DNA of 64,000 nt, taken from the NCBI RefSeq assembly GCF_023509015.1, contig NZ_CP094975.1, positions 131,501-195,500 of the forward strand, read 5' to 3'. Shown piece after piece: positions 17,798-39,465 of the stretch (position 1 is the first letter of the stretch; each line of letters opens with the position of its first letter). Both the position numbers and the translations under genes were made by a program. The notes beneath the pieces are model-generated. The model worked only from the letters and a program-made list of their open reading frames with translations, was not told where the DNA came from and made no database searches. This DNA comes from Pseudomonas abieticivorans. GTDB taxonomy: Bacteria; Pseudomonadota; Gammaproteobacteria; Pseudomonadales; Pseudomonadaceae.

Positions 17798-17810
17798 GTT
17801 ATAAAAGGTC
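17798..17810 (-). promoter_or_regulatory. EPS box (GAC-N6-TAAC)
   Basis: On the minus strand it reads GACCTTTTATAAC. It is about 107 nt upstream of the uppP start codon and in the same orientation as uppP. Confidence 0.5.
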
Positions 17811-17919
17811 AACGCGGTTGAGTAATGGGTGAAATAACCACTATTATCCGTAGCGGCTAAACCTGACGGATGCTATTGCCTCGGTGCATTGTCCTTCTCT
17901 ACACAATGCGGATACCTAA

Positions 17920-17932
17920 AGTTATATAACGT
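17920..17932 (-). promoter_or_regulatory. EPS box, near match
   Basis: On the minus strand it reads TACGTTATATAAC, one base off the GAC-N6-TAAC core. It lies between two full matches in the same intergenic region. Confidence 0.35.
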
Positions 17933-18045
17933 ATCAGTGCCCGATTACCGCCGTCTGCGCAGCTATCACCTTGGCTGCCAGCGCCTCACCGGTTAGGTTC
18001 TAGAGCCATGCACACGGTGATCTTCATGGAAACAATCAAGGAAAT

Positions 18046-18058
18046 GTTATGAATTGTC
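18046..18058 (-). promoter_or_regulatory. EPS box (GAC-N6-TAAC)
   Basis: On the minus strand it reads GACAATTCATAAC, 84 nt upstream of the first regulator's start. The surrounding 24 nt (18037-18060) match 27044-27067 upstream of yjbE at 20 of 24 positions, which strongly suggests a shared site. Confidence 0.6.
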
Positions 18059-18142
18059 TGACATTTTCGGGAACTTGTACATTAACATCCGCCTGCCAGC
18101 ACCAACTTGAGCTAAACCAGTATGACGTTTGAAGGGAACCAA

Positions 18143-18850
18143 ATGATGCTAACGTCGGCGCAGACGAGGCTGCTCGCTGTCGGTCGCACCTGTGCGCTTG
18201 CCGAAGATTTCAAGCAACTAATTGCTAGCCATGCGTACCAGAACACGCTGATCGACACACTCTGCTACAAGCACTTGGAGGGTGATACTAGCGACATCGA
18301 CGGCTACCAGTCCATCTTTGTCGAAGTTGATCGAACAGAGGCAGTTAACGAAAGCCTGGCCGTGATTGAAACGTTACGCGCCAACAATATGACGCCAACG
18401 ATTTATATTATATTGAGTGGCAGCGGCGTTTATAACAAGATTAAATTCTACTTGGCCGGGGCTGATCACTGCTTGAAAACCAGCGCGTCCAGCGACCGCG
18501 AGTTAAGCGAACTGGGCGAATGGATCAATGGCCCGGCGCCTGCTATCACACCCTGTTTACTACTTGATCCCACGCGCATGCGCATCCTTGGCGCACAGGA
18601 AAAGCTGGATATTTCATTTATCGAAATGAAAGTCCTCGACGCTTTGGCCAAGTCCAGAAACCTTATTTTGAGCCATGACGAAATCGCCTCGGTCATGGGC
18701 TTGAACATCAGCTTCTACGACCCTCGCGCGCTGGAGAAGTCCATCAGTCGCTTGCGCGGCAAGATCAAGACCCACTTTGGCATCAACGCACTGCAAAGCG
18801 TTCGTGGCTACGGCTACCGGCTCGCCAGAGGCCTGATTTCCCCCATCTGA
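18143..18850 (+). CDS. atypical response-regulator-like protein with OmpR/PhoB-type winged helix
   Basis: The 235-residue product has an N-terminal domain (about 1-125) with the alternating strand-helix pattern of a receiver. FVEVD stands near the phospho-acceptor strand, ILSGSG at the Thr/Ser strand and CLKTS at the Lys position. The acidic pocket is not canonical, so phosphorylation is doubtful. Residues ~135-230 form a Trans_reg_C winged helix ending in the family signature SVRGYGYRLA. I chose the ATG at 18143 (GAAGGGAA upstream) over 18122. It is the first gene of a three-gene plus-strand cassette beside the exopolysaccharide genes. The repeated EPS boxes in its own promoter suggest autoregulation (inference). 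Confidence 0.8.
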   Translation: MMLTSAQTRLLAVGRTCALAEDFKQLIASHAYQNTLIDTLCYKHLEGDTSDIDGYQSIFVEVDRTEAVNESLAVIETLRANNMTPTIYIILSGSGVYNKIKFYLAGADHCLKTSASSDRELSELGEWINGPAPAITPCLLLDPTRMRILGAQEKLDISFIEMKVLDALAKSRNLILSHDEIASVMGLNISFYDPRALEKSISRLRGKIKTHFGINALQSVRGYGYRLARGLISPI

Positions 18851-18874
18851 GAGGCCCACCGGGAGGTGCGTAGC

Positions 18875-19624
18875 ATGAATGCGTCGCAGCGGTTCCAACT
18901 CGCCAACGATACTGATTTCTACTTGAGTCGACAGTTAATCCTCAAGCGTGACGACCGCCCACTGGGCAGTGAAATCAGGATTCTGCTGGAGCAGCAACCC
19001 CGCAGCCTAGACCCCGGCACGCGCCTGTCGAGCAACAAATTGGCGTGTATTTACAGTGAAATGCTTATGCACACACAATTGATGGCTTTCGCCCTGAAAG
19101 GCCACGTCAAGCCGCTGGAACGCACGTTCAGCCGGCGCTTCGTGTGCATTGCACAACCCGACCTCGCCGACCCGGCACTTCTTGAAGAATTGATCCAGAG
19201 CGGTGAAATGCTCCGTAACCATGGCCAGACGCTGGTGGTGAGCACCAACGCGCTCGCCCCCGCCGACGCCAGCTTCAAACACAAGAAAAAGATCATAAAG
19301 CATGTGTACCTGCTCAAGGACCACGCCATAGAGCTGGCACTGGACCATCATAACCCGCACCACGAAAGTTTCGAGATCCTGACCACACTGGACGTGTTCG
19401 ACTATATAAAAATACCGTTCTCATCTCTGGACTTGAGTTTAAAACTGAACACCAACCCGGACGAATTCAATCAGCTTTACGATCGCATGAGTTCGTTAAA
19501 GCAGCGCACGCACGTCTCGTTTATTGCCGACAACGTGGAACATACCGCGAGTCACTTACTGGCCAGAGCCCTGCCGTTTGATTTTTTTCAGGGAAGCTAT
19601 TACTCACCTGCCGACCCCCTGTAG
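18875..19624 (+). CDS. degenerate EAL-domain protein (probably no phosphodiesterase activity)
   Basis: The 249-residue product follows the EAL-domain plan without its catalytic residues. An early strand reads SRQLILKRDDRPLGSEIRIL. The position of the ExL motif is not acidic (LACIYSEML). DYIKIPFSSLDL takes the place of the DxxKID segment, with Pro for Asp. VSFIADNVEHTASHL stands for the VIAEGVET strand, and the end FFQGSYYSPADPL matches the QGYxFSxP tail. Loss of the Glu and Asp metal ligands suggests a binding protein like YdiV rather than a c-di-GMP phosphodiesterase. GGGAGG precedes the ATG at 18875 by about 9 nt. It is sandwiched between two winged-helix genes (24 and 26 nt away), suggesting it modulates them. 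Confidence 0.7.
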   Translation: MNASQRFQLANDTDFYLSRQLILKRDDRPLGSEIRILLEQQPRSLDPGTRLSSNKLACIYSEMLMHTQLMAFALKGHVKPLERTFSRRFVCIAQPDLADPALLEELIQSGEMLRNHGQTLVVSTNALAPADASFKHKKKIIKHVYLLKDHAIELALDHHNPHHESFEILTTLDVFDYIKIPFSSLDLSLKLNTNPDEFNQLYDRMSSLKQRTHVSFIADNVEHTASHLLARALPFDFFQGSYYSPADPL

Positions 19625-19650
19625 CACTTCTATCCTTCAAGGAGAACATG

Positions 19651-20313
19651 ATGGAAACCGGTATGACTTCCCCTAGAAAGTACTTTGTGGTTGTGACCCA
19701 CAGCGCCACGACACAACTCGAACTCGAGTCGGTACTGGCGGGCGGTCGATACGATAACTACGACTCCGCGCACGCCAGCGTCTATGTAGAAGGCCTGGCG
19801 AATTTCACCAGTGCCAGTGAATTGGTAGCGCGCTTTTCGCAGCATATTGAGCGACTTGACCCGCCGATCCTTAAGTCTGACACGCGCCTGGTGTTGGCCC
19901 CCCCTGCTCCCCATGTGCCCCTGGTGCAGTGGCCGGCTCAGCTTGCGGCACCGCTGGCCGCCGCCGAACACGGCGTCAAGCCCGCCGCTGCACATCTGCA
20001 GCCGCAACCTTGCAACGAAACCTGGAAACTGGGCCGGGACCGTAAAATGCTGGTCAAGGACGATGCCAAGGTGGTACTCACCGGGATAGAGTCGGCGTTG
20101 GTCAGGACCCTGTTGCAAGCCGATGAGCGGGTCGTCAGCAAGGACGACCTGATTCGCAGTATTGGCCGGGAACCCGACCAGTACCGCGGCCTGGAAATGT
20201 GCCTCAGCCGCCTGCAGGACAAATTCAGAAGTGCCAGTTGCGGCGAACGTCTGTTTCGGGCAGTTCGAAACCGCGGGTATTGCCTGATCCAACCCATCGT
20301 TCGCGAAAGCTAA
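19651..20313 (+). CDS. winged-helix (OmpR/PhoB-type) regulator with a short non-receiver N-terminus
   Basis: The 220-residue product has an N-terminal ~85 residues (FVVVTHSATTQLELE onwards) that is too short for a normal receiver, a Pro/Ala-rich linker (about 85-120), and a C-terminal winged helix (about 125-217). The winged helix has LTGIESALVRTLL, VVSKDDLIRSIG, LEMCLSRLQDKF and the RAVRNRGYCL wing. It lacks visible phospho-acceptor features, so it is probably controlled by protein contacts or ligand. AAGGAG sits 6 nt before the ATG at 19651; the ATG at 19648 is too close. It is the third gene of the cassette, and its only downstream neighbour on this strand is the WcaJ-like transferase gene. 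Confidence 0.78.
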   Translation: METGMTSPRKYFVVVTHSATTQLELESVLAGGRYDNYDSAHASVYVEGLANFTSASELVARFSQHIERLDPPILKSDTRLVLAPPAPHVPLVQWPAQLAAPLAAAEHGVKPAAAHLQPQPCNETWKLGRDRKMLVKDDAKVVLTGIESALVRTLLQADERVVSKDDLIRSIGREPDQYRGLEMCLSRLQDKFRSASCGERLFRAVRNRGYCLIQPIVRES

Positions 20314-20345
20314 CTGTAACGGCTGCAGGAGACACGCCAACGGCT

Positions 20346-20358
20346 GTCCAATACTAAC
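20346..20358 (+). promoter_or_regulatory. EPS box, near match, upstream of the initiating transferase
   Basis: It reads GTCCAATACTAAC, one base off GAC-N6-TAAC, and lies 33 nt after the cassette's last stop codon. Confidence 0.4.
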
Positions 20359-20400
20359 AATAATAGTCCTGCCGCCGAGCCAAAGACTCACTCGGCGTGC

Positions 20401-20413
20401 GTTATAACTCGTC
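20401..20413 (-). promoter_or_regulatory. EPS box (CTGAC-N6-TAAC) upstream of the initiating transferase
   Basis: On the minus strand it reads GACGAGTTATAAC, preceded by CT, so the extended CTGAC-N6-TAAC core is complete. It is 160 nt upstream of the transferase ATG within a 260-nt intergenic region. Confidence 0.55.
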
Positions 20414-20573
20414 AGACTAAGTTGCTTTGATTAAATTAATCTACTTCCAGACTCGCCCATTCGCGCGCGCGTCGAAGGTGCCACTGAAAAACGCCACCCA
20501 ATAACAATAATGGAAATGACCGAAGTGGCACTTGTCTGTCGGCCTCTGTACGGATGCTCTCTGGGGATAGATC

Positions 20574-21968
20574 ATGATTAATAACAACCGTTTAACCCGT
20601 CCATACGCACTCAAGGGTTTAACCTTCTGGGGCCAATGGGTTATTGCCTCAAGTATTATCGTCACGCTGCTGTTCAGCCTCGCTTACTACCACACCGATA
20701 ATGTTGCGTTCTATTATCGTGCCTGCGCGGTACTGACGCTGCTGGCCTCGCTGCCGGCCTATTCGTTATGCCAGGTGTATGCCAAACAGGACAGCTACCT
20801 GAGCGGTTTAACGCGGTTGCTGGCGGGCTGGTTGCTGACCTTGTCGGTACTGACAGTCATAGGCTTTCTCTGCAAGGCCGATGAATTGTTCTCCCGCCAA
20901 GTCATTGTGCAATGGGCGTTGCTGGGTTATGCCGCCCAGGCCCTGACCTACCTGCCGCTGCAGTGGTTTTCACGGCGTTACCACCGGCACCTGCAGCGCC
21001 AGCACCGGACCCTGATCGTCGGCACCGGCGAACTGGCCATTGGCCTGGCCAACACCCTGGGCCAGCTGGATCAATGCCCGCTGGTGGGGCTGGTCAGTGC
21101 GGGGCAGCCGTTGCCCCGGCATATCGCCTTGCCGCCTGTACTGGGGCCTTTGCAAGCACTGCGGCAACTGATCAAGGCCCACGATATTCGCCGCCTTTAC
21201 ATCACCCTCCCGCTGAGCGAAGCCGCAAACATCGAAGCCCTGTACCTGGACGTGCTCGATGCCAACGTCGACGTGGTATGGGTACCCGACCTTAACAGCC
21301 TGACCCTGCTCAACCATTCGGTACGCGTGGTGAACGGCTTGCCGGCGATCTACCTCAACGAAAGCCCGCTCACCAGCCAACCCACGGCTGCGTTGAGCAA
21401 GAGCCTGCTCGACAAGGCCGTGGCGTTGCTGGCCATCATCGTGCTCGCCCCGGTCTTGATGGTGATCGCACTGGCGATCAAACTCACCTCTGCCGGCCCG
21501 GTTCTGTTCAAGCAAGCGCGCCACGGCTGGAACGGCAAGATCATCCAGGTCTGGAAGTTTCGCTCCATGCGCATGCATGATGACACCCATGTGGTGCAGG
21601 CCAGCCGTCATGATTCGCGCATTACGCCGGTGGGCCGCTTCATACGTCGCACATCGCTCGATGAACTCCCGCAATTGTTCAACGTGTTGCAGGGGCACAT
21701 GGCCCTGGTGGGCCCGCGCCCGCATGCCGTCGCGCACAACGACTTCTACGCCGACAAGATCCTCGCCTACATGGCCCGCCATCGCATCAAGCCGGGCATC
21801 ACCGGCCTGGCACAAATCAATGGCTGCCGCGGCGAGACCGAGACATTGGACAAGATGCAGAAGCGTGTGGAGATCGACCTCGACTACATCAATAACTGGT
21901 CGTTGTGGCTGGACCTGAAGATCTTGTGCAAGACGCCGTTCACCTTGTTGTCCAAAGACATCTACTGA
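20574..21968 (+). CDS. undecaprenyl-phosphate sugar phosphotransferase, WcaJ/PssY-like (initiates EPS repeat unit)
   Basis: The 464-residue product has four or five N-terminal membrane segments (about 17-125), a nucleotide-binding-like middle domain (RTLIVGTGELAIGLAN), a further membrane helix (near 285) and a C-terminal bacterial sugar transferase domain. Motifs there are VWKFRSM, RRTSLDELPQLFNVLQG, LVGPRPHAV and KPGITGLAQINGCRG. Such enzymes transfer glucose-1-P (or galactose-1-P) from UDP-sugar to undecaprenyl phosphate, the first step of a Wzx/Wzy polysaccharide. GGGGA precedes the ATG. It is transcribed alone from its own promoter region and stops at a strong shared terminator. Confidence 0.9.
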   Translation: MINNNRLTRPYALKGLTFWGQWVIASSIIVTLLFSLAYYHTDNVAFYYRACAVLTLLASLPAYSLCQVYAKQDSYLSGLTRLLAGWLLTLSVLTVIGFLCKADELFSRQVIVQWALLGYAAQALTYLPLQWFSRRYHRHLQRQHRTLIVGTGELAIGLANTLGQLDQCPLVGLVSAGQPLPRHIALPPVLGPLQALRQLIKAHDIRRLYITLPLSEAANIEALYLDVLDANVDVVWVPDLNSLTLLNHSVRVVNGLPAIYLNESPLTSQPTAALSKSLLDKAVALLAIIVLAPVLMVIALAIKLTSAGPVLFKQARHGWNGKIIQVWKFRSMRMHDDTHVVQASRHDSRITPVGRFIRRTSLDELPQLFNVLQGHMALVGPRPHAVAHNDFYADKILAYMARHRIKPGITGLAQINGCRGETETLDKMQKRVEIDLDYINNWSLWLDLKILCKTPFTLLSKDIY

Positions 21969-21986
21969 TACTGCTGTCACAAAAAA

Positions 21987-22010
21987 GGGGGCGCTCGGTT
22001 GAGCGCCCCC
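21987..22010. terminator. strong bidirectional rho-independent terminator
   Basis: GGGGGCGCTC and GAGCGCCCCC form a perfect 10-bp GC-rich stem with a GGTT loop, preceded by six A and followed by eight T. It therefore works on both strands. It separates the convergent WcaJ-like gene and yjbH. Confidence 0.93.
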
Positions 22011-22041: not shown

Positions 22042-24108
22042 CTACTCGGTGATCTTCTCGAAATTGTCGTAAAGCAAGCGGCTGTCGCGGCTGTCGGTCA
22101 TGGCCTTCAGCGAATAGGCGTGGTTAACCTTGGCACCGCCGTCGCGGGTCAACGGCGACCACACCACGTTGGCGCGGCGCTGGGTGGAGGTACTCAGCAA
22201 CTCGTCGAAGGGTATCGACAGGTAGATGCCCTTGTCGAAACTGCCTTCGCCATACTCAGCCTTGGTTGCGGTGGTCAGGGTGACCCAGCCACCAAAGCGC
22301 ACGCCATTGCCGAACCCCCGTGAAAGGTCCAGCGTGGTGCCCCAGTCACGGGCCAGGTAGCGACCGACACTGACCACCGCCTGGGCCTGGCCGGGCAGGT
22401 CGAAGTAGCCGGTGACATTACCGGTCACGGTGGAATAATCACGCAGGCCAAAGCCCTGGTCGAACGCGCGCTGACGCACATAATTGAGGTCTGCACCCAC
22501 GGCCCAGCTTTCCCCCATAGGCCGATACAACACCTCGCCCCCACCGCCGGCGTACATGGACTCCAGGTAGCCGCCATAGGCCATGGCGTACACGTCGCGA
22601 TCCAATTGCACCGCGTGGTTGAGCTGGAAGGTCGGCAAGGTCACGTCCGAGGTGGTCAGGTACTGACGCAGGTCGGTGCGTACGCGCGGCAACCCGCTGG
22701 GGGCGTCATAGGTGAACTGGTCATAATTGTTCAACAGGTTGGCGCTGAGCATGCCGCTCCACCAGGTGGAACGGGTAAAGCGATACTCGGCAGTGGCATC
22801 GGCAGTGAACTGATACAGCAGGCCATCGGGGCCGCCGATGTTCTGCTTGTAGCCCAGGCCAAAGCCGTAATCGAACGGGTGCAACGGCTCGCTGTACAGC
22901 GTGGTTTCGCGATGAGCCATCGAGGCGTTGACCTCGGTGCCACGCTTGAGCGTGGCCAGGTCCTCGCGGTTACCGGCGACCTGGGTAAAGGCCTCTCGCG
23001 GCACGCTGGTTTCTTCCAAGGGCATGCCATAGCGTTCGTTCACCAGGGTAAACCAGGTCACGTCGGCTGCAGTGCTGTTGTCCAGGATCCGGCTGGCGCG
23101 CCCCACGGCCTTGGCGGGGTAGAAGTACTTCTGCTGCTCGCCGTACACCCGCACTTCAGCGCCCTGCTGGCTGATACGCTGCACCTGGTAACCCGCGTTG
23201 TCATGCAGGCGCCGGGACACGTCTGCCCAGTCGACCTGGGCAGGCTGCGCTGTCGAGCGTCTCTCAAAAGGCGGATCGTTACGCTTGGCCGGCGCTTTGC
23301 GGCTGGCGAAGTTGGTGTGCAGGGTGATGCCGAACATGGCCGTGTTACCCCGCTCCCAGGCGGCACTCAGGTCGACCGAATCAGTCAGCCGGTAGACCGC
23401 GCCAATGTTGACGGGCGAGTCTTGCTTGATCACGTTGTCCAGTGGTTCGTTCTGGTAATCGTTGCCTTCGTACTCAAGCTTGAGGCTCAAGGCCGGCCAA
23501 GGCGTTTGATAACTCACGCCGCCAAACAGCGCCGGCCGCCCACGGAAATAGGCATTGGTGTTGACGTCGCCGGTGCCCTCGCTGGCCGGGCGCGTTTTGA
23601 AGCGCTCGTCCAACGCCCCCAGGGGGTTGTCGAAGTCGCCACGGTTGCCCAGGTAGCCCCAGGCGATACCCGCGCTGAAGTCCAAATCGTCAACGCGCTT
23701 GTTCGCCACCAGGTATTCACTGGAGAACAACCCCGTGCCGCCGATGTCCCGAAAGCCCAAGGCGACGTCCGGCAGCCAGCGGCTTTCCTGCCACAGGCGT
23801 GCCTTGAAATCCACGGCCTTGTCCTTGTAACTCTGGTTGCCGCTCAGGGCCTGGGAGCCATAGGGCCGATTGGTGATCGCGGTATAGCGAAACGACCCCT
23901 CCAGCCATTCGAAGGGCTGCATCGACAGGCTATAGCGGCTGTAAGGTTCGGTACGGTTGGCGTTGACGCTCAACTCCCCCGCCGGCGCCATGCGCGCCGT
24001 GGGCGTTTGCAGCAAGCCCACGCCGCCGAAGTCATTCTGGGTGTAACGCGGGTCGGCATGGGCCAGGCCACACGGCAGCAACAACACTGCAGCAAAACGT
24101 AAATTCAA
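22042..24108 (-). CDS. yjbH: YjbH-family outer-membrane protein for exopolysaccharide production
   Basis: The 688-residue product has a signal peptide (about 1-18, ending LAHA) and then the YjbH signature start (NDFGGVGLLQTPTARM) and long stretches of alternating aromatic and glycine residues typical of a beta barrel (GGWVTLTTATKAEYGEG near the end). YjbH belongs to the yjbEFGH/gfcABCD exopolysaccharide system; its mechanism is unresolved, but an outer-membrane secretion or modification role is likely. The start codon is TTG at 24106-24108, overlapping the yjbG stop (TTGA), so translation is coupled. Confidence 0.85.
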   Translation of the reverse strand: MNLRFAAVLLLPCGLAHADPRYTQNDFGGVGLLQTPTARMAPAGELSVNANRTEPYSRYSLSMQPFEWLEGSFRYTAITNRPYGSQALSGNQSYKDKAVDFKARLWQESRWLPDVALGFRDIGGTGLFSSEYLVANKRVDDLDFSAGIAWGYLGNRGDFDNPLGALDERFKTRPASEGTGDVNTNAYFRGRPALFGGVSYQTPWPALSLKLEYEGNDYQNEPLDNVIKQDSPVNIGAVYRLTDSVDLSAAWERGNTAMFGITLHTNFASRKAPAKRNDPPFERRSTAQPAQVDWADVSRRLHDNAGYQVQRISQQGAEVRVYGEQQKYFYPAKAVGRASRILDNSTAADVTWFTLVNERYGMPLEETSVPREAFTQVAGNREDLATLKRGTEVNASMAHRETTLYSEPLHPFDYGFGLGYKQNIGGPDGLLYQFTADATAEYRFTRSTWWSGMLSANLLNNYDQFTYDAPSGLPRVRTDLRQYLTTSDVTLPTFQLNHAVQLDRDVYAMAYGGYLESMYAGGGGEVLYRPMGESWAVGADLNYVRQRAFDQGFGLRDYSTVTGNVTGYFDLPGQAQAVVSVGRYLARDWGTTLDLSRGFGNGVRFGGWVTLTTATKAEYGEGSFDKGIYLSIPFDELLSTSTQRRANVVWSPLTRDGGAKVNHAYSLKAMTDSRDSRLLYDNFEKITE

Positions 24109-24863
24109 GGAGCCACCTCAGCCAGTTGCGTGGCCAGAAATTCAGTCAACTGCTGATTAAGTTCAGGGACAGGGACATCAAGGTCATCGGTGCGGATCGG
24201 TACCCACAGCGTGCCGCCATCGGCCAGCACGGCAGCCGATTCGCGGTTCCACGCTGCGGCGCCGATACGCCTTACATGGCCATCGGGCTGGATCAGCCAC
24301 AGGTCATCGGGGTCGGCATCGACCAACGCCGGACAGTCGCGCAGGTAATCGCGGGCTTGCAGGAGGGGCTGATAGGGCAAGCGGCAAGGCCGCGCGACCG
24401 CGCCCATGACCTGCACGACACCGCTACGGCGGGGGTACACCAACCGATCGCCCTCTTCGACCCGATCATTGCGGGCAAAGCCCACCTCCAACGCTACCGG
24501 GTCCAGCACCGCGACCTGGCGACCCGTGACCGGCAACTGCGCCACCCATTGGTACACACGCCGCGCGATCGCAGCACGCTGCGTCAGGCCCTCCAGCATC
24601 GCGCCGCGTTCAAGCAGCTTGAGGTCGAACAGCACGCCGGTCTTGAGACGAACCTGCTCTTGCACCAGGCTCGCCCGCAGCCAACCTGCGGCCAGCCAAT
24701 AGCTTTGTGCATTGGGCTGCACGGCCGTCACGGCATCGAGCAAACGCGCGTGCGCCGGCAAGGCCACGGTTCCTGGGTAGAGCACATCCCCGCTCACCGT
24801 GACCTGCCCGGCTTGCGCCGCCCCCATTGCCAGGCCCGCCAACACCCCTGCCAGCCGCCTCAT
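24105..24863 (-). CDS. yjbG: YjbG/GfcC-family periplasmic polysaccharide protein
   Basis: The 252-residue product has a signal peptide (about 1-18, AQA) followed by VTVSGDVLYPGTVALP, a SLBB-like beta-grasp segment also seen in Wza. A second VQVMGAVARPCRLPY segment repeats the pattern near residue 150. GfcC/YjbG proteins are periplasmic partners of capsule export. The ATG overlaps the yjbF stop by 4 nt and the TTG of yjbH overlaps its own stop, so the three genes form a tight unit. Confidence 0.82.
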   Translation of the reverse strand: MRRLAGVLAGLAMGAAQAGQVTVSGDVLYPGTVALPAHARLLDAVTAVQPNAQSYWLAAGWLRASLVQEQVRLKTGVLFDLKLLERGAMLEGLTQRAAIARRVYQWVAQLPVTGRQVAVLDPVALEVGFARNDRVEEGDRLVYPRRSGVVQVMGAVARPCRLPYQPLLQARDYLRDCPALVDADPDDLWLIQPDGHVRRIGAAAWNRESAAVLADGGTLWVPIRTDDLDVPVPELNQQLTEFLATQLAEVAP

Positions 24864-25531
24864 AGCAACGGCTCGCGCGCGGCGGCGAGCTGCACAATGG
24901 TCACGGTCAAGGTCGGCGTGAGGTGTTGTTCACTTTGCAACACGGCCCCCGTCTGCGGGTCCACCCAATAGTGATTGGTGGCCTGCAAGCCGATCGCCGG
25001 GGCATCAATCTGTTCATCCAAACGCAACACCGCGTAGTCCTTGTCCAGAATGCGCAGGGTTTGCAACCCACCCCGGCTGAATCGGCTGTGCACCGGTACA
25101 CCCACGCGGTAACCGTGGTAGAGGTCGATCAAGCGCTCGCTCTGGTAACCGTCGGCCACCTGATGCAAGCCTTGCTTGAAGGGTGAACCTGGGGCCAGTT
25201 GCGTCCCATCCAAATCTTCGCCAACCCCCAGGCCCACGCTGCGCACCACCAGGCCGTCGCGCAGCATCAACACCTGCTTGCCGGACGCGACCCAGAACTG
25301 CAGGTCGCCGCGTTGGCGCACAAGGGCGAGCACGCCTTCGCCGGAGGGGGTGGTGAGTTTGAGCTGGGCGTAGGGGACGCTGGCGATTTGGGAGGGGCTC
25401 AGTTGCAACGCGGGTGCTGGCTTGATGGCAGTGACCAAGTCGTCCACTGATGCCCGGGACAACGGGTCACATCCGCCAAGGCCCAGGGCCAGCAGCAGCG
25501 CTGCGCCCGTTCGATAAATATTCACGGTCAA
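24860..25531 (-). CDS. yjbF: YjbF/GfcB-family outer-membrane lipoprotein
   Basis: The 223-residue product has a lipoprotein signal with LGLGGC as lipobox near residue 21. The mature part is beta-rich (YAQLKLTTPSGEGVLALV; TNHYWVDPQTGAVLQSEQ), as in the YjbF/GfcB family (DUF2886). The start is a TTG at 25531 with AAGG 6 nt upstream; a GTG two codons later is an alternative. It follows wza with an 8-nt gap and overlaps yjbG by 4 nt. Confidence 0.82.
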   Translation of the reverse strand: MTVNIYRTGAALLLALGLGGCDPLSRASVDDLVTAIKPAPALQLSPSQIASVPYAQLKLTTPSGEGVLALVRQRGDLQFWVASGKQVLMLRDGLVVRSVGLGVGEDLDGTQLAPGSPFKQGLHQVADGYQSERLIDLYHGYRVGVPVHSRFSRGGLQTLRILDKDYAVLRLDEQIDAPAIGLQATNHYWVDPQTGAVLQSEQHLTPTLTVTIVQLAAAREPLL

Positions 25532-25539
25532 AGTGCGCC

Positions 25540-26646
25540 TTATCTGCTGGCCGCTTCACTCAGGTTATTTTGAGCAGCAGCACCTATGCCTACGATAGAG
25601 GCCGAGGGAACCAGTTGGCTGATGAAGCGGTTCCAGCGCGTAACGTCTGCAGGTCCGACATAGACCACGTCCTGGGGTTGGACCTGAAAATGGGTCGCCA
25701 ATACCATGGCCGAGGGCGATTTCACGTCCAGCTGGTAGACCTTGGCCGGCGTGGTTTGAAGGTTATCGACCCCGCGGATCACATACACCGCGCGGCCATC
25801 GGAGGTGTTTTGATTCAACCCGCCGACCGTACCCAACACCTCGGACAAGTTCAGCGTGCGCGTCTTGAAGGTCAGCGCACGGGGCTGGTTGACCTCCCCC
25901 ATCACGTAGATTTTTTTCAGATCGTTGTACGCCAGGTACAGCGTGTCGTCGGCTTTGAGATAGACACTGTTCAACTGGTTGTCAGGTTGCCCCAGGGTGT
26001 TGAGGTCCAGGGTATAGCGCTGCCCGTCGCGCAACAGGGTGAGGTTGGCCAGGTCCGCGTTGAGGGTGTCGATACCGGCGTCACCCAACGCTTGCACCAC
26101 GCTCAACGGGCTGGTGGTCAATGACTGTTTTCCAGATTTCAGCACGGCACCCGAGACCACCACTGTCTGGCTGGCGAAGCGCAGGATACTCAGGTCGACC
26201 TGCGGGTTATCGACATAGCGAGCCAACCCCGCGGCAATCGACTTGCGCAGCTCTTCAATGGTTTTGCCCGCCGCCTGCACCGGCCCCAGGAATGGATAGA
26301 ACAGCGTACCGTCCGGGCGCACCAGCCGGCCGTTGGCATCAATTTGTTGTTGCTGCCCCGAAGGCGCCGTCAACTCGGGGTGGTCCCACACGGTGATGTA
26401 CAGCACGTCGTTGGGCCCGATCCGATAACCGTCTGGCGAATAGGCCAGCAACGGCGCCGGTACCGGATGTTGTTCGGCAGCAGCGGCATCCATGGCAATC
26501 GACTTGGGCGTGATTGCAATGAAGTCCACACCTTGTGCACCGTTCGCCGAAGTCATGGCCGCCGTGTCCATTGTCTGGCCTGGCGCAAACAGGCAGGCTT
26601 GCAACAGCATCGAGAGCGAAATTACCAACAACAATTTAACGGTCAT
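25540..26646 (-). CDS. wza: Wza-type polysaccharide export outer-membrane lipoprotein
   Basis: The 368-residue product has a lipobox (MLLQAC near residue 18), a Poly_export domain (YRIGPNDVLYITVWDHPEL at about 70-88), SLBB domains (VVVSGAVLKSGK; IYVMGEVNQPRALT) and a C-terminal amphipathic stretch (RWNRFISQLVPSAS) that fits the outer-membrane helix barrel of Wza. It forms the outer-membrane exit channel for Wzy-type polysaccharides and pairs with the Wzc-like kinase in this locus. The ATG at 26646 gives the lipobox at the right distance but has no clear Shine-Dalgarno; an in-frame GTG at 26691 is possible. A hairpin separates it from yjbE. Confidence 0.9.
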   Translation of the reverse strand: MTVKLLLVISLSMLLQACLFAPGQTMDTAAMTSANGAQGVDFIAITPKSIAMDAAAAEQHPVPAPLLAYSPDGYRIGPNDVLYITVWDHPELTAPSGQQQQIDANGRLVRPDGTLFYPFLGPVQAAGKTIEELRKSIAAGLARYVDNPQVDLSILRFASQTVVVSGAVLKSGKQSLTTSPLSVVQALGDAGIDTLNADLANLTLLRDGQRYTLDLNTLGQPDNQLNSVYLKADDTLYLAYNDLKKIYVMGEVNQPRALTFKTRTLNLSEVLGTVGGLNQNTSDGRAVYVIRGVDNLQTTPAKVYQLDVKSPSAMVLATHFQVQPQDVVYVGPADVTRWNRFISQLVPSASIVGIGAAAQNNLSEAASR

Positions 26647-26682
26647 AAGCACACTACATGGAGGAGAGACGTGTTTTGAAAG

Positions 26683-26714
26683 ACGGGCCACTCAACGCCG
26701 ATCGAGTGGCCCGT
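26683..26714 (-). terminator. hairpin between yjbE and wza, likely partial terminator/attenuator
   Basis: ACGGGCCACTC and GAGTGGCCCGT form an 11-bp perfect stem with a 10-nt loop, 20 nt after the yjbE stop. On the minus strand it is followed only by CTTT, so termination is probably partial. This would give yjbE a higher transcript level than wza and yjbFGH (inference). Confidence 0.6.
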
Positions 26715-26974: not shown

Positions 26975-27052
26975 AATTCACTCCCTTTAATGATGATTTT
27001 TTTCGACAGCCTGTCATTGATAAAACAGCGGCGCACACGCCTTCAAGGCAAT

Positions 27053-27065
27053 GTTATTAACTGTC
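27053..27065 (-). promoter_or_regulatory. EPS box (CTGAC-N6-TAAC) upstream of yjbE
   Basis: On the minus strand it reads GACAGTTAATAAC, preceded by GCT. The 16-nt string GCTGACAGTTA-W-TAAC recurs at 36821-36836 between wzb and galU. It lies 78 nt upstream of the yjbE ATG, just beyond the acyltransferase stop. Confidence 0.62.
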
Positions 27066-27071
27066 AGCGTG

Positions 27072-28112: not shown

Positions 28113-28226
28113 GGTCTTTCGTTATACCCCGATCATTAGAACCCCATGAACCGACCTGATCCAGACAAGCAGGCCATCTGAGACTCATCATACTGAGCCG
28201 GATGATATTCATTTGAATTAAATGCC

Positions 28227-28239
28227 GACGTTTTATAAT
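28227..28239 (+). promoter_or_regulatory. EPS box, near match, in the glycosidase/acyltransferase gap
   Basis: It reads GACGTTTTATAAT, differing only in the last base from the box at 39371-39383. It sits in the 168-nt gap upstream of the acyltransferase start. Confidence 0.4.
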
Positions 28240-28280
28240 GACTGCCGGGGCTTAATGTTATTTTCAGAAGATTTTAATAT

Positions 28281-29498: not shown

Positions 29499-29521
29499 GA
29501 TGTTCCCCTTAGGCCGCACGC

Positions 29522-31599: not shown

Positions 31600-31608
31600 G
31601 ATTGATCA

Positions 31609-33955: not shown

Positions 33956-36172
33956 TCAGTGGCTGTGGGACTTGTAGTCGTAAACGTACCCATAGCCGCC
34001 GTACCCATAGCTATTGGTGGCGGTCCTGCGCAAACCGTTGAAGATCAGGCCGCCAACACCGACTCCGTTCTGCTGCAGCTTCCTGAGGGCATAGCTGATC
34101 TCTTTGACCGGGCTCAAACCAAACCGGGCAACCATCAAATTGGTGCCGCAATGGCGTCCGATAATCAGCGCATCGGTCACGGCCAGTACCGGTGGGGTGT
34201 CGATGATGATGAAGTCGAATGCGTCATCAACCGCACGGATGAACGCCTCGAAGTTAGCGTGCATCAGCAGCTCCGAAGGGTTTGGCGGTACTTGCCCACG
34301 AGCAACAAAAAACAGCCCCGCCACCTCGGTTTCATGAATGCACTGGGACAATGGCGAGCGCTTGACGAGGATGTCCGACAGGCCGTTCTGCGCCTCTTTG
34401 CCAAACACCTCGTGGATATAGCCTTTGCGCATGTCGCCATCCACCAGCAACACCCGCTTACCCGCCTGGGCAATCACCGTGGCCAGGTTGATCGAGACGA
34501 ACGTTTTGCCCACCGACGGGCTGGGGCCGGAAATCATCACGCACTTGTTGTGCGATTCCAGCATGGCGAAGTGCATGCTGGTGCGCAGGCTACGCAGTGC
34601 CTCGATCGCGGTGTCGGTGGGGTGACTGAAGGCAAGCAACCGCGAGGTAACCCCCGCGACCAGGCTTTTGGAGCGCCCCGGCTTCTGCTCATCCTGCAGC
34701 AGGCTCTGGGGGATCGACGCATACACCGGCAAGCCGAATTGCTCGATGTCTTCCACCGACTCGACACCTCGGTTCAAGCTCTTGCGAATCAGCACCAGGG
34801 CCACCGAGATAAACGCGCCCAGGAACGTGGCGATCAGGATGATCAGCAGCTTCTTGGGCTTCACCGGTTTGGTCATGTCGGCATCAGCACTGTCGATCAG
34901 GCGCACGTTGCCTACCGCCCCGGCCCGCATCACGTCCAACTCCTGGGACTTGTTCAGCAACTGGGTGTAGATTTCGCTGCTGACCTTCACGTCCCGCGTC
35001 AAGCTCATCAGTTCTTTCTGGGTTTCAGGCAACGCTTCGACGCCCTTGGCCAACGCTTGCTTTTGCCCATTCAGCTGACTGATTTGCTTGACCAATGCCT
35101 GGTAGGCAGGGTGCTCGTGGGTGTACTGGCGGTCCATCTCCAACTGCCCCAGGCGCAACTGCGAAATTTGCGTATCCAGTGCCACGATCCGATCCAGCAC
35201 CGCCTTGGTTTCGACGCTGATATCGACAGTGCCTTTGCGGGTTTGGTAGGCGTTGAGCGCTGATTCGGCTTTTTCCAGGTCTTGCTTGACCGACGGCAAT
35301 TGTTCCTTGAGAAAGTCCAGGCTTGCCGCCGCTTCGGCCGAAGTGCGCTCGACATTCTGCTTGACGTAAAGGCTGCCAATTTCATTGAGAATCTGTTTGG
35401 CACGTTCAGGGTCACGGTTTTCCAAAGACAGTGCGACGATGCCGGAGTCCTTGCCTTTTTCAGTCACGTCCATGTCGTCCTGCAAGCGCAGGATGGTGGT
35501 CATGGGGTATTCCTTACGCACCGTGAACCGGGCACCCGGATTGGCCTCAAGGGTGCGGACCAGAATCTTCACACCCTGCTGATCGGCTTCGACGCCTACG
35601 TGCCCTTGCAATAAGAGGTTCTGGTCGTCATCAAGCAGCTCATAGGCTTGATCGTCGAGGGCGCGCAAGGTCAGGTCTTTTTCCAACAGTGCGTCTGGCA
35701 CTTCAAGGGTCGTGACACTGGCGCGCTCACCGCCCCAGTTATATCGCTCAAGGCCCAAGCGCGGTGGGGCCAGGTCGGTGTTGGCTGACTCATAGCGCTT
35801 AGCCAGGAAATACCCTACCCCTGGCAAATAACGGGGCTGCACGATGATATTCAGCCTGAGGTTTTTGACCGCCTTGCCGACCACCGAGCGGGACTTGATC
35901 AACTCTATTTCAGTGGCCGCTGGCGAGGCGCCACCGAGCATGCTGGAGATATCGGACAGGCCAAAAATATCAGCCTTCTTAGGTTCCACCTGCACCAGTG
36001 CATTGGCGCTGAAAATAGGCGGTGTGAACACCGAATAGGCGATGGCCACGGCCATGAACACCGAGGTTAGGCCGGCAATTTTCCATTTGCTGTCAATCAA
36101 GTTGGCAGCCAACGCGACAAACTCATGAGTGTCGCTTTCGCTGTGCAAGGCCTTCGGCATGATCGGTTGCAT
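33956..36172 (-). CDS. wzc: Wzc-type polysaccharide co-polymerase and tyrosine autokinase
   Basis: The 738-residue product has a Wzz domain between two membrane helices (about 30-50 and near 420-440), long periplasmic coiled coils (EQLPSVKQDLEKAESAL), and a cytoplasmic BY-kinase domain. Kinase motifs: Walker A GPSPSVGKT, A' LLVDGDMRKG and B FIIIDTPPV. The C-terminus holds a Tyr cluster (NSYGYGGYGYVYDY) for autophosphorylation. It sets chain length and, with Wza, forms the export system; the Wzb phosphatase is encoded just upstream. The ATG at 36172 with GAAGAAG upstream was chosen over 36247. Confidence 0.93.
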   Translation of the reverse strand: MQPIMPKALHSESDTHEFVALAANLIDSKWKIAGLTSVFMAVAIAYSVFTPPIFSANALVQVEPKKADIFGLSDISSMLGGASPAATEIELIKSRSVVGKAVKNLRLNIIVQPRYLPGVGYFLAKRYESANTDLAPPRLGLERYNWGGERASVTTLEVPDALLEKDLTLRALDDQAYELLDDDQNLLLQGHVGVEADQQGVKILVRTLEANPGARFTVRKEYPMTTILRLQDDMDVTEKGKDSGIVALSLENRDPERAKQILNEIGSLYVKQNVERTSAEAAASLDFLKEQLPSVKQDLEKAESALNAYQTRKGTVDISVETKAVLDRIVALDTQISQLRLGQLEMDRQYTHEHPAYQALVKQISQLNGQKQALAKGVEALPETQKELMSLTRDVKVSSEIYTQLLNKSQELDVMRAGAVGNVRLIDSADADMTKPVKPKKLLIILIATFLGAFISVALVLIRKSLNRGVESVEDIEQFGLPVYASIPQSLLQDEQKPGRSKSLVAGVTSRLLAFSHPTDTAIEALRSLRTSMHFAMLESHNKCVMISGPSPSVGKTFVSINLATVIAQAGKRVLLVDGDMRKGYIHEVFGKEAQNGLSDILVKRSPLSQCIHETEVAGLFFVARGQVPPNPSELLMHANFEAFIRAVDDAFDFIIIDTPPVLAVTDALIIGRHCGTNLMVARFGLSPVKEISYALRKLQQNGVGVGGLIFNGLRRTATNSYGYGGYGYVYDYKSHSH

Positions 36173-36277
36173 TCTAAACTTCTTCAGTAGGAGCGCTTGA
36201 ATTGAAAATCCACAAGGGAACCCGCCGATACCGCGGCGAACAGACACTATGCTAATGCTGATGCTGGGCGCGCGGCT

Positions 36278-36290
36278 GACGGTTTATAAC
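36278..36290 (+). promoter_or_regulatory. EPS box (CTGAC-N6-TAAC) between wzb and wzc
   Basis: It reads GACGGTTTATAAC, preceded by CT, and lies in the 139-nt gap between wzb stop and wzc start. This suggests wzc may have its own promoter. Confidence 0.55.
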
Positions 36291-36311
36291 ACCAGGATCA
36301 CCAAACTAACT

Positions 36312-36755
36312 TTATGGGTAGGCCAACCGTTTGATCCACGCCTGCACCCCCTCTTCAATCAATGCATAGGCCTGTTTGAACGCGCTCTCGCCTTTACAGT
36401 AAGGGTCGCTTATTTCCCGATTGCCCTGCCATTTACCCAGTAGGAACACCTTGCCTCGGGCCTCTGGTGCCAGTTTCAAAATGCGCTCTACCTGGTGTTG
36501 CTCCATCACCAGGATCAACTCGCAATCGCTCGCCGCCTGACGGGTAAACTGCCTGGCACGGTGCTCTGGCGCAGCGTGGCCATGAGCTTCCAAGACACTG
36601 CGCGCCGTCGCTTCGATCGGCGCGTCGACCAATGCCGCAAGCCCCGCCGAATGAATTTCAATGGCCGAAGAGCTCAACGCTTCGCGCAACAACTGCTCGG
36701 CCATTGGGCTTCGGCAAATATTGCCAATGCACACAATTAGAACCCGATTAATCAA
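36312..36755 (-). CDS. wzb: low-molecular-weight protein-tyrosine phosphatase (Wzb type)
   Basis: The 147-residue product has the P-loop CIGNICRS (C-x5-R-S) at about 9-16 and the general-acid loop ISDPYCKG near 113. It is the cognate phosphatase of the Wzc-like kinase, and cycling of its tyrosine cluster is needed for polymer export. The start is a TTG at 36755 with GGAG 8 nt upstream; no ATG gives the right N-terminus. Its promoter region is shared divergently with galU. Confidence 0.92.
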   Translation of the reverse strand: MINRVLIVCIGNICRSPMAEQLLREALSSSAIEIHSAGLAALVDAPIEATARSVLEAHGHAAPEHRARQFTRQAASDCELILVMEQHQVERILKLAPEARGKVFLLGKWQGNREISDPYCKGESAFKQAYALIEEGVQAWIKRLAYP

Positions 36756-36823
36756 CGAACTTACTCCGGCAACATCAACCTGATAACGTCAATCAGAGTA
36801 CGCACTGCGCGGCCGTGTTAGCT

Positions 36824-36836
36824 GACAGTTATTAAC
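36824..36836 (+). promoter_or_regulatory. EPS box (CTGAC-N6-TAAC), wzb/galU divergent region
   Basis: It reads GACAGTTATTAAC, preceded by GCT, giving 15 of 16 identity with the yjbE box in the extended form. It lies 68 nt from the wzb start and 159 nt from the galU start. Confidence 0.62.
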
Positions 36837-36853
36837 GCATGACCGTGCAGCAG

Positions 36854-36866
36854 GACAATTACTAAC
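36854..36866 (+). promoter_or_regulatory. EPS box (GAC-N6-TAAC), wzb/galU divergent region, second copy
   Basis: It reads GACAATTACTAAC and starts 30 nt after the first copy, so both lie on about the same helix face. Confidence 0.58.
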
Positions 36867-36995
36867 ATCCCGGGATTGCGCGCACTTTTACATTTGTCAG
36901 CCACCCAATTAATAAGGTAAAAAGTTGCTGAGGTACTAAGCTTATTGACATCCCGCCCACCGCAAAGCTCATCGCTTCAACTTTAAGGTACGCCC

Positions 36996-37829
36996 ATGAT
37001 TCGCAAGTGTTTATTCCCCGCCGCCGGTTATGGCACGCGTTTTCTACCGGCGACAAAAGCCATGCCCAAGGAAATGTTGCCGATTGTCAACAAACCCCTG
37101 ATCCAGTATGCCGTTGAAGAGGCACGAGACGCAGGCCTGCAACACATGGCCATTGTTACAGGTCGCGGTAAACGCGCCTTGGAAGACCACTTCGATATCA
37201 GTTACGAGTTGGAGCATCAAATTCGCGGAACCGAAAAAGAGTCCTTCCTGGCCGGCACGCGGGAATTGATCGAAACCTGTACGTTCTCCTACACCCGGCA
37301 AGTCGAGATGAAGGGGCTAGGCCATGCCATTCTCAGCGGGCGCCCGTTAATTGGTGACGAACCTTTTGCCGTGGTACTCGCCGACGACTTATGTATCAAC
37401 TTGGCCGGCGATGGCGTATTGGCGCAAATGATCGCACTGTACAAACAGTTTCGCTGCTCAATCGTGGCCATTCAGGAAGTCCCCGCCGACCAGACCCATA
37501 AATATGGGATTATCGCCGGCGAGCAGATTCGCGATGGCATCTATCGCGTCAACAGCATGGTCGAAAAGCCCAGCCCTGAAACTGCACCCTCAAACCTGGC
37601 CATTATTGGCCGCTATATTTTGACCCCCGACATCTTTGACTTGATTGCCGACACCGAGCCCGGCAAGGGCGGTGAAATTCAGATCACCGATGCGCTGATG
37701 AAGCAGGCCCAAAGCGGCTGCGTATTGGCTTACAAGTTCAAGGGGCTGCGCTTCGATTGCGGCGGTGCGGAAGGCTACATCGACGCCACTCAGTTTTGTT
37801 ACGAACAACTGTACCTCAAAGGTCGCTGA
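36996..37829 (+). CDS. galU: UTP--glucose-1-phosphate uridylyltransferase GalU
   Basis: The 277-residue product has the nucleotidyltransferase signature start FPAAGYGTRFLPATKAMPKEMLP at about 7-29 and VEKPSPETAPSNLAI near 190. It makes UDP-glucose, the precursor for cellulose synthase (BcsA/WssB), the initiating transferase and other glycans. Standing between the exopolysaccharide and wss loci, it supplies both. TAAGG precedes the ATG. It is transcribed away from wzb. Confidence 0.95.
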   Translation: MIRKCLFPAAGYGTRFLPATKAMPKEMLPIVNKPLIQYAVEEARDAGLQHMAIVTGRGKRALEDHFDISYELEHQIRGTEKESFLAGTRELIETCTFSYTRQVEMKGLGHAILSGRPLIGDEPFAVVLADDLCINLAGDGVLAQMIALYKQFRCSIVAIQEVPADQTHKYGIIAGEQIRDGIYRVNSMVEKPSPETAPSNLAIIGRYILTPDIFDLIADTEPGKGGEIQITDALMKQAQSGCVLAYKFKGLRFDCGGAEGYIDATQFCYEQLYLKGR

Positions 37830-37889
37830 GCCCGACCTTCGGCCGCTCACGACAGGGCGGCCTGCCCCATTACCTGAGAAGGCCTCACC

Positions 37890-38216
37890 ATGAACGCCCT
37901 TGAATATCTTTTTGAAACGTTGCCATTGGTGGAGCGAATGGGTGTATTCCCCAGTTCCGGCGATATCCTCCAGGCTTTGCCCAACGCCGACGCCTGCCTG
38001 ACTCGGTTGCGTGAGCGCTATGCCGCCCAGGCACTGGAGATCGATGAGCGCCATGGCTTGCGGATGGTGTTCGAACAATGGCGCTTTTGGGTGCACCGGG
38101 TACAGGGCGAGGCGGCGGTCGTGCTGCGCGTGGACAGCCGGGGGGATGTAGGCGTGCTCGGTGATAAAACGCAGGAATTACTCAGTCGCTTGAGAAGTTT
38201 CACGGCGGATCAATAA
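37890..38216 (+). CDS. hypothetical protein, 108 residues
   Basis: The frame starts 60 nt after galU with GAGAAGG in front and continues in good codon use. The product has no signal peptide or membrane segment and is mixed alpha/beta (FETLPLVERMGVFPSSGD; HGLRMVFEQWRFWVHRV; DKTQELLSRLRSF). I do not recognise a family. The 3' end overlaps the convergent PAP2-like gene by 7 nt. It is probably co-transcribed with galU. Confidence 0.55.
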   Translation: MNALEYLFETLPLVERMGVFPSSGDILQALPNADACLTRLRERYAAQALEIDERHGLRMVFEQWRFWVHRVQGEAAVVLRVDSRGDVGVLGDKTQELLSRLRSFTADQ

Positions 38217-38839
38217 CGGGCCACCTGCGCCCGCCCCGGCCAATCCGCCCGCTCAAACGCATGACTGACCCCCGAGATGGCCATCGCACAATGGTTAAGC
38301 AGCGACTCCGCCGTGACCTTGGGTATGCCGGCACACAGGATAATCACCGTAACCCCTATGGCAATGGCCGATATGGGAATCGATTCGGCGTCCAACCGCT
38401 CCAGGCGCACTAAAAACACCAGGGCTGCGACGCACCCGGCGATAGCGCCGGCAATCGCCTCCGGCAACGGATGAACGGCAGGCGCGATGAAGGTCACGCT
38501 AAACCAAACACTGGCTACCAACCCGACCACCGCCGCTGGCCAACGCAAAGCCGGATGCCATTGGCGTGCCAACAAGCTGAGGCCCACCGTGCAAATCAGG
38601 CAGGCATTCATCGCATGGCCGCTGATTACCGCGATGTCCAGGCTGTCGATACCCACGCCCCAGCCCTTGTAGAGGATTTTGCTGGTGGCCACCACGGCGT
38701 AAACGCCGAGCAATACGGTGCCCCACAGGCAAGCCGCGCGGCGCGAGGCGTTGAACCACAGCCACAGTCCGATCACGATCGCTGCAGGGAGCATGACCGT
38801 GATGCCAGCGTATTGGGCGATTGCCAACCTGGAATCCAA
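38210..38839 (-). CDS. PAP2-like membrane protein, degenerate phosphatase motifs
   Basis: The 209-residue product has about six hydrophobic segments. Of the PAP2 motifs, SGH (ISGHAM near 79) and a late H-x3-E (HPLPE near 127) are seen, but the first motif lacks the RP after KILYKGW and the third motif lacks the Arg and has Glu for Asp. It may be a phosphatase with altered chemistry or a non-catalytic relative. A lipid-phosphate role near an exopolysaccharide locus would fit. The start codon is TTG at 38839 with GAGG upstream. Confidence 0.6.
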   Translation of the reverse strand: MDSRLAIAQYAGITVMLPAAIVIGLWLWFNASRRAACLWGTVLLGVYAVVATSKILYKGWGVGIDSLDIAVISGHAMNACLICTVGLSLLARQWHPALRWPAAVVGLVASVWFSVTFIAPAVHPLPEAIAGAIAGCVAALVFLVRLERLDAESIPISAIAIGVTVIILCAGIPKVTAESLLNHCAMAISGVSHAFERADWPGRAQVARY

Positions 38840-38874
38840 TGGAGCCTCGTATCAAAAGGTGGATCAGCGCGCAA

Positions 38875-39324
38875 TCATACGCGCACGCCGGCCTTGGCGC
38901 GACAAGCCGTCGGCAGTGCCACCGGCCCCAGGCGCAATGCCGAGTAACTGACGATGTCCATCGCAATGCCTTCCTCTACCAGCAGTTCGAACAGCGCCGA
39001 CTGCGCCTCGAACCGCCCCTGGCGGTCAATTTTTTGCATCTGATGCATATGTTGAAACAACACGTGAGTCACCTGCAGCGGCGTATTTGAACGCAAGCAG
39101 CGCAACCAATAAGGCATTTTTGCTGATGTTTTGCGCTGCTGGGCTTGCGCGATCGCAGCCGCCTGGGGCGCAGTACTTTTTGAGGTAATCAACATCACCT
39201 CAAAGACATCGGTCAACTTCCTCAGCACATGGCCCAGCATTAAGTTATTCAAGGCGCCCACGCAGACACTCCCGTTAAAATAATTAAGTGTATTCTCATA
39301 AAAATGCAAACACCGGGCACACAC
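38875..39324 (-). CDS. hypothetical protein, 149 residues, upstream of wssA
   Basis: The frame starts with GTG at 39324 (GAAGG upstream) and runs to 38875. The product has His/Met/Gln-rich segments (HVLFQHMHQMQKIDRQGRFEAQ) and no obvious signal or membrane helix. A shorter start at Met 29 (39240) is possible. Base composition is lower in GC in the first third than in neighbouring genes. No family was recognised, and I cannot exclude a spurious frame. Confidence 0.4.
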   Translation of the reverse strand: MCARCLHFYENTLNYFNGSVCVGALNNLMLGHVLRKLTDVFEVMLITSKSTAPQAAAIAQAQQRKTSAKMPYWLRCLRSNTPLQVTHVLFQHMHQMQKIDRQGRFEAQSALFELLVEEGIAMDIVSYSALRLGPVALPTACRAKAGVRV

Positions 39325-39370
39325 CTAATTCGTCACCTTCATAATACGACGCCTCCCTTAACGCGCGCAT

Positions 39371-39402
39371 GACGTTTTATAACAGATACGGCAATTACTA
39401 AC
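39371..39402 (+). promoter_or_regulatory. EPS box pair 1 upstream of wssA
   Basis: GACGTTTTATAAC and, 19 nt on, GGCAATTACTAAC (one base off the core). Confidence 0.55.
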
Positions 39403-39432
39403 CGCCGCAAGCTGGACGACACTTAAAACACT

Positions 39433-39465
39433 GACGACTTATAACAATGATTGACAGCTCCTAAC
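39433..39465 (+). promoter_or_regulatory. EPS box pair 2 upstream of wssA
   Basis: GACGACTTATAAC (preceded by CT) and, 20 nt on, GACAGCTCCTAAC, both full core matches. Confidence 0.6.

Follow-up and report, generated by a model that had tools for sequence, protein, structure and literature searches.

The closest described counterpart of the locus treated here is the capsule system of Pseudomonas fluorescens SBW25. According to the parts of the published accounts that we drew on (PMC4357382, PMC6519391), its CAP locus (pflu3654-3678), a colanic-acid-like capsule cluster, is associated with a ribosome-RsmA/E bistable switch, and the regulators pflu3655-3657, which lie directly upstream of the wcaJ-wzb cluster (pflu3658-3678), drive a bistable positive-feedback capsule switch whose published model is autoregulation. 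In the same excerpts, insertions in pflu3654-3657 abolish or reduce the capsule, the regulators being needed for full expression; a reporter of the region upstream of pflu3655 is on in capsulated cells only, and capsulated switcher cells exceed their ancestor 572-fold in pflu3655 mRNA. Here we describe a short repeated sequence, GAC-N6-TAAC (the box), in a stretch of 64,000 nucleotides from Pseudomonas abieticivorans (contig NZ_CP094975.1, positions 131,501 to 195,500; hereafter the window), where it precedes the operons of a capsule cluster as well as wssA, at the start of a cellulose operon. On the sequence evidence below, the box is predicted, with a probability of roughly 0.78, to be the operator for the regulators that the capsule cluster itself encodes, here named regA and regB (products RegA and RegB).

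Compared by gene order and description, the window and SBW25 share a three-gene regulator operon directly upstream of wcaJ and a cluster running from wcaJ to wzb. An earlier note on this DNA, made from the letters alone, missed this match to a bistable capsule system, while its interpretation was otherwise supported. RegA and RegB are likely counterparts of pflu3655 and pflu3657; homologues of regA exist under the names P. brenneri, P. poae and P. fluorescens. The regA upstream region of loci L040-L042, which we take as the SBW25 subgroup, carries a box like GTGACAAATTTTAAC, and a GTGACAAATTTTAAC-like box is predicted upstream of pflu3655 in SBW25 itself. Unlike the SBW25 locus as described in the excerpts consulted, the capsule cluster in the window adjoins wss, and wssA carries boxes. 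Those portions of the SBW25 literature give no operator sequence and no link from the regulators to cellulose, although the operator may have been published elsewhere. Within the P. fluorescens complex, the Pseudomonas acidic polysaccharide (Pap) locus is likewise a Wzy-type exopolysaccharide locus, but identity with it was rejected, since gene content and order differ in the part of the description seen (PMC7716237). In all, the comparison draws on parts of PMC10146422, PMC7716237, PMC4357382, PMC6519391 and PMC5559549.

Results

The form of the box was defined in the upstream regions of 80 named Pseudomonas loci and the window (the named set), with the reversed pattern as the control. The consensus over these regions is C-Y-GAC-(G/A)-(A/T)-T-T-(T/A)-N-TAAC-A. 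GAC-N6-TAAC occurs 493 times as against 43 for the control, and no other order of the half-sites at gap 6 is enriched (GAC-N6-TGAC, 3 versus 8; AAC-N6-TGAC, 9 versus 43; AAC-N6-TAAC, 5 versus 17). At gaps 4, 5, 7 and 8 the GAC-TAAC counts are 3, 19, 3 and 16. The box is thus an asymmetric direct repeat, TGAC-N6-TAAC, with a 10-bp pitch and an A/T-rich centre, which is the layout of OmpR-type sites; the gap of 6 between 4-base half-sites places them within the 10-11 bp, centre to centre, of OmpR/PhoB-type operators. The two half-sites differ by one base, and their order is nearly fixed. Both orientations of the box occur, which fits a DNA-bound factor better than an RNA element. Pairs on the same strand are spaced by 29 bp in 43 cases and by 30 bp in 7. 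A -10-like hexamer follows the box by 24 nt in regA promoters and by 23-24 nt in those of wcaJ, and such a distance would put the box at around -49 to -37, where class II activators bind.

Conservation of the box in related Pseudomonas loci, proposed earlier as a check, was borne out. In the named set, counted without conditioning on a match in upstream windows of 480 (regA), 300 (wcaJ), 600 (wza), 260 (galU) and, for internal genes, 400 bp, a perfect box precedes regA in 81/81, wcaJ in 81/81, wza in 63/63 and galU in 33/33 cases, as against 3/81 for regB, 3/64 for yjbF and 0/64 each for yjbG and yjbH. A wider set of loci, which partly overlaps the named set in genomes and includes loci from the same genome, gave the same picture: uppP 86/86 (within 600 bp), regA 100/101, wcaJ 99/99, wza 75/75, galU 34/35 and wzb 8/8, and 0/37 for the EAL-like gene, 5/101 for regB, 4/77 for yjbF, 0/77 for yjbG, 2/77 for yjbH, 1/8 for wzc and 1/2 for the acyltransferase gene. 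The galU miss is apparently L044, in which galU is split and boxes stand before its first part. The distal wcaJ box persists in surroundings of low conservation, in a view conditioned on a match. Relatives also carry a perfect box at the place of the near match 20346, and relative L043 has one before its acyltransferase gene at about the place of the near match 28227.

The box count follows regA across genomes. By our reading, a regA homologue (expectation value, E, of 1.1e-19 or better) is present in 99 of 397 other genomes of the genus, and boxes stand beside regA in all 29 relative loci returned. Among 194 genomes of the order only two matched, the own genome and one of the same genus, and a plasmid collection yielded only distant response regulators. 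GACNNTTNNTAACA sites average 4.3 per genome in 40 genomes with regA and 1.1 in 40 without.

In the window, GAC-N6-TAAC has 11 full matches where dinucleotide shuffles give a mean of 2.16 and, in 100 shuffles, a largest count of 8. The ten full matches listed in the earlier note are all in place, its four near matches (17920, 20346, 28227 and 39390) are as described there, and its claim of more copies than chance allows in a GC-rich window survives these controls; it had overlooked the 11th match, at 32847, a probable chance occurrence that falls within a coding sequence (32763-33941) and has no TT centre. The other ten are intergenic, as that note had said, and all fall within 17798-39465, with two placements corrected: 27053 precedes a small yjbE-like gene, and 36278 lies in the 64-bp gap between wzb and wzc. 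All of about 213,000 gapped 3+4 patterns (gaps 0 to 12) were also counted in the intergenic DNA, 2,280 bp in segments that we picked from the gene calls (51% G+C). GAC-N6-TAAC was the commonest, with 10 copies, and the best of all patterns in 300 shuffles reached a maximum of 8 (mean 5.5), so that the finding survives this look-elsewhere control.

Across the own 6.7-Mb chromosome, TGACN6TAAC occurs 70 times, 9 of them inside 17798-39465 (the coding match included; binomial P 2e-12), and GACNNTTNNTAAC, a refined pattern chosen only after the sites had been seen, occurs 13 times, 7 of them inside this 21.7-kb region, which is 0.3% of the chromosome (P 6e-15). The suggested genome-wide count therefore does find the box concentrated at the exopolysaccharide locus. 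Both patterns are outnumbered by their reversed forms (156 and 38 occurrences), which shows that the box itself is not common. Matches of GAC-N6-TAAC also cluster at 2.248-2.253 Mb; this second group was considered as a target locus and rejected: it lies in an island with an integrase and defence-type genes, no exopolysaccharide family was found among the ten proteins scanned there, and the matches are probably chance. The region 2240000-2259999 (L064) encodes integrases, a DUF6119 protein, a Shedu-type SduA protein and an AAA ATPase. Taken together, these data indicate that the box is real, conserved and specific to the capsule system.

The link to cellulose holds beyond the window, for a single lineage of the cellulose operon. 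Among 398 genomes, the own one included, ten encode a close WssA (E of 1e-70 or better), and in all ten the first three half-sites of the wssA array, TGAC-N6-TAAC-N6-TGAC, precede the gene; the proposal that exopolysaccharide and cellulose operons have the box in common is thus upheld in the own and 9/9 other genomes, 8 of which also have regA. This is not a neighbour effect, because wssA lies 0.41 Mb (G275), 1.43 Mb (G237) and 0.74 Mb (G355) from the capsule locus in the three genomes where the distance is measurable; in the other regA-bearing genomes with a close WssA the two are on different contigs. A wssA match was found in 38 of the 80 regA-bearing genomes. Among the 30 loci returned for these 38, the 6 with a close WssA (53-54% identity) all have the box upstream. 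Seven of the 24 loci with a divergent WssA have some match: four CCGAC-N6-TAAC without the TT centre, two CTGACCCCGCGTAAC and one other.

RegA and RegB both contain a Trans_reg_C domain (RegA, 36.7 bits against a cut-off of 26.2), which in RegA is also recognized as PhoB-type by fold match; no receiver family was found in RegB. The regA start at 18143 was inferred by comparison with relatives; the frame has its first ATG at 18122. In the RegA model (mean predicted local distance difference test score, pLDDT, 75.6; predicted template-modelling score, pTM, 0.56; 24 rows) the N-terminal part consists of alternating strands and helices, and the fold search puts CosR first, followed by an entry whose title describes an atypical, phosphorylation-independent orphan regulator. 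Over the full length the template-modelling scores are low (mostly 0.33-0.37 for the best-ranked matches); PhoB and CadC are better fits to the DNA-binding domain alone. The atypical orphan OmpR-family proteins CosR, 2hqr (which we take to be HP1043), RitR and GlnR rank 1, 3, 9 and 27 among the fold matches, at a low identity to RegA (15-20%); the ordinary response regulators VanR and PhoP are among the matches as well. On our reading of the receiver-like part there is no acidic pair after strand 1, and D70, conserved among close relatives, is missing from some distant ones; RegA thus seems to lack a classical phosphorylation pocket. Unlike the genes of CosR-type orphans, regA lies in one operon with the genes of another winged-helix protein and of an EAL-like protein. 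For the latter, the match is confined to the later part of the EAL profile, and catalytic motifs seem missing by eye; it is probably not catalytic, and it was detected in 27 of 81 loci at the threshold used.

Coordinates of the boxes and genes are collected in Table 1. The regA, EAL-like and regB genes form one operon. An acyltransferase, a glycosyltransferase, a pyruvyltransferase and proteins without a Pfam family are encoded between wza-yjbFGH and wzc. When the 80 named loci were compared, with up to 10 kb on each side, the regulators, wcaJ and the export genes were found, whereas the acyltransferase, pyruvyltransferase, glycosyltransferase and unassigned genes of 27072-33941 were not found above 80 bits; the locus is perhaps a conserved frame around a variable polymer.

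Table 1. Boxes, promoter elements and genes of the capsule and cellulose region (window positions)
Feature	Position	Strand	Sequence	Remark
uppP	16860..17690	-		undecaprenyl-diphosphate phosphatase
Box	17798..17812	-	TTGACCTTTTATAAC	upstream of uppP, directed at uppP
Box	18046..18060	-	CAGACAATTCATAAC (regA strand: GTTATGAATTGTC)	regA promoter
-10-like hexamer	18083..18088	+	TAACAT	24 nt from regA box; position kept in relatives
regA	18143..18850	+		atypical OmpR-type regulator (degenerate receiver and winged helix)
EAL-like gene	18866..19624	+		weak, partial Pfam match
regB	19648..20313	+		second winged-helix regulator
Degenerate copy	20344..20358	+	CTGTCCAATACTAAC	where relatives have a conserved upstream wcaJ box
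Box	20401..20415	-	CTGACGAGTTATAAC	upstream of wcaJ
wcaJ	20574..21968	+		wcaJ-type undecaprenyl-phosphate glucose phosphotransferase
wza, yjbF, yjbG, yjbH	22042..26691	-		export genes
Small yjbE-like gene	starts near 26977			recognized by eye
Box	27053..27067	-	CTGACAGTTAATAAC	upstream of yjbE-wza-yjbFGH
Near match	28225..28239	+	CCGACGTTTTATAAT	upstream of acyltransferase gene
wzc and wzb	33956..36755	-		
Box	36276..36290	+	CTGACGGTTTATAAC	wzb-wzc gap (64 bp)
Box	36822..36836	+	CTGACAGTTATTAAC	between wzb and galU
Second wzb-galU box	36852..36866	+	AGGACAATTACTAAC	30 bp from the first
galU	36996..37829	+		
Box	39369..39383	+	ATGACGTTTTATAAC	upstream of wssA
Array	39431..39465	+	TGAC-N6-TAAC-N6-TGAC-N6-TAAC	upstream of wssA; half-sites at exact 10-bp steps
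wssA/bcsQ and bcsA	39553..42743	+		start of cellulose operon; start 39553 chosen by us

Matches near other genes were also seen. In 60 algD-type upstream regions (algD recognized by eye), a box such as GACCTTTAATAACA stands about 596 bp upstream of algD in six genomes (L179-L183; L193, L199, L200, L201, L203, L204), that is, in 6 of 28 regions from relatives with regA, 0 of 2 from the own genome and 0 of 30 from genomes without regA. One more region from a genome with regA has a different TT-centred site at -648, and GACAGGAGATAAC sites, which lack the TT centre, occur in 4 regions with and 3 without regA. Alginate was considered as a third target and not retained, the algD site being a feature of some relatives that is absent from the own genome. 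The own genome has a second algD-like gene at 6057875-6059179 (L222), 75% identical to the query, the other being at 1466031 (89%). Two genomes (L185 and L190) have a box-like ATGACGCTTTATAACAACG some 230 bp in front of a rho-like gene, and a site near a transaldolase-like gene was noted in one genome, both genes being recognized by eye.

Discussion

We propose that RegA, RegB or both, as phosphorylation-independent OmpR/PhoB-type proteins, would bind the box head to tail and, as class II activators, bring in sigma-70 RNA polymerase. Binding at the regA promoter would supply the positive feedback described in SBW25, and binding at wssA would put cellulose under the same switch, so that one switch for capsule and cellulose is predicted. 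The two winged-helix proteins, suspected in the earlier note, do turn out to be the best candidates, but the comparative data cannot tell which of them binds, because they co-occur in 81/81 loci. A heterodimer whose two orphan winged-helix proteins, RegA and RegB, would each read one of the half-sites is suggested by the asymmetric half-site order (493 copies as against 3, 9 and 5 in the other orders); we regard it as a tentative, rather doubtful elaboration. If it were true, capsule and cellulose would fire only with both proteins present, an AND gate inside a bistable loop, and the wssA array would hold two heterodimers side by side.

A housekeeping protein of the OmpR family, such as a resident EnvZ/OmpR-type system, might instead bind the box, with RegA and RegB acting in some other way. 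The box does closely resemble the Escherichia coli OmpR consensus, TTTTACTTTTTG(A/T)AACATAT, with which the wssA box of relative L145, the copy that fits best, shares 13 of 15 bases; both have two AC-ended half-sites 10 bp apart and a T-rich centre, and the predicted binder of the box is, like OmpR, of the winged-helix class. In the box, however, GAC rather than TAC comes first and TAAC second, with little exchange, and its targets lie mostly at one locus. Genomes without regA, with 1.1 sites as against 3.4 for the reversed control, give no sign of wider use of the motif, whereas regA and regB adjoin the boxes, and the SBW25 excerpts report the regulators as required activators. We therefore consider a housekeeping binder improbable. 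It is less probable still that the box is the promoter core element of an alternative sigma factor: the constant spacing from a -10-like element at two promoters would suit one, but the box occurs in both orientations, often in several copies per promoter and at several distances, and close wssA promoters have a separate TTGAC element, with a -10-like stretch about 17 nt further on in most copies.

AlgU regulates exopolysaccharide or capsule in Pseudomonas, and AmrZ, FleQ and MvaT are described as such regulators in the literature excerpts consulted, so the copies could in principle be sites of these proteins, or the outcome of plain AT-rich intergenic composition, given the 51% G+C of the DNA used. 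Asymmetric spacing, with gap 6 far above its neighbours, speaks against all of these, the dinucleotide-preserving shuffles fall short of the observed count, and the AmrZ, AlgU and FleQ sites are not known to match the box. Of the explanations weighed here, we rate this one lowest, at a very slight chance.

Several observations weigh against the proposal that RegA and RegB read the box. The constant company of the two genes is one of them; another is that SBW25 was matched through gene order and description. AAC-N7-TAAC (62 versus 6) and GAC-N5-TAAC (19 versus 7) also exceed the reversed control. Tandem boxes lie mostly 17-18 and 29 bp apart, which are not exact helical multiples, and exact phasing of whole boxes was rejected, while the 10-bp pitch of the half-sites held. 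The -10 distance of regA fails at yjbE, and the galU spacing was judged by eye only. One genome (G223, its assembly 73% complete) has the wssA box without a close regA, and another with a close WssA (G233) has a stop codon inside regA. Among loci with a divergent WssA (36-44% identity), 17 of 24 have no GAC-N6-TAAC across 3.7-4 kb, and L049, whose RegA is 26% identical, has no box and is the single regA miss of the wider set. Finally, the reversed control is also higher in genomes with regA (5.5 versus 3.4), so part of the contrast between genomes with and without regA reflects genome size or composition, and part of it is simply the presence or absence of the capsule locus.

As far as the portions of the literature searched extend, the operator, its asymmetry and the cellulose branch are new. 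The SBW25 capsule switch, whose bistability evolved under experimental conditions, has been well studied, and no operator for its feedback loop was found in those portions, nor any report of a capsule switch setting two matrix polymers jointly. With a 15-bp site predicted at about -49 to -37 of the regulator promoter, the loop becomes directly testable by a point change. The box before distant cellulose operons, in turn, predicts that in those species both matrix polymers would be set at once.

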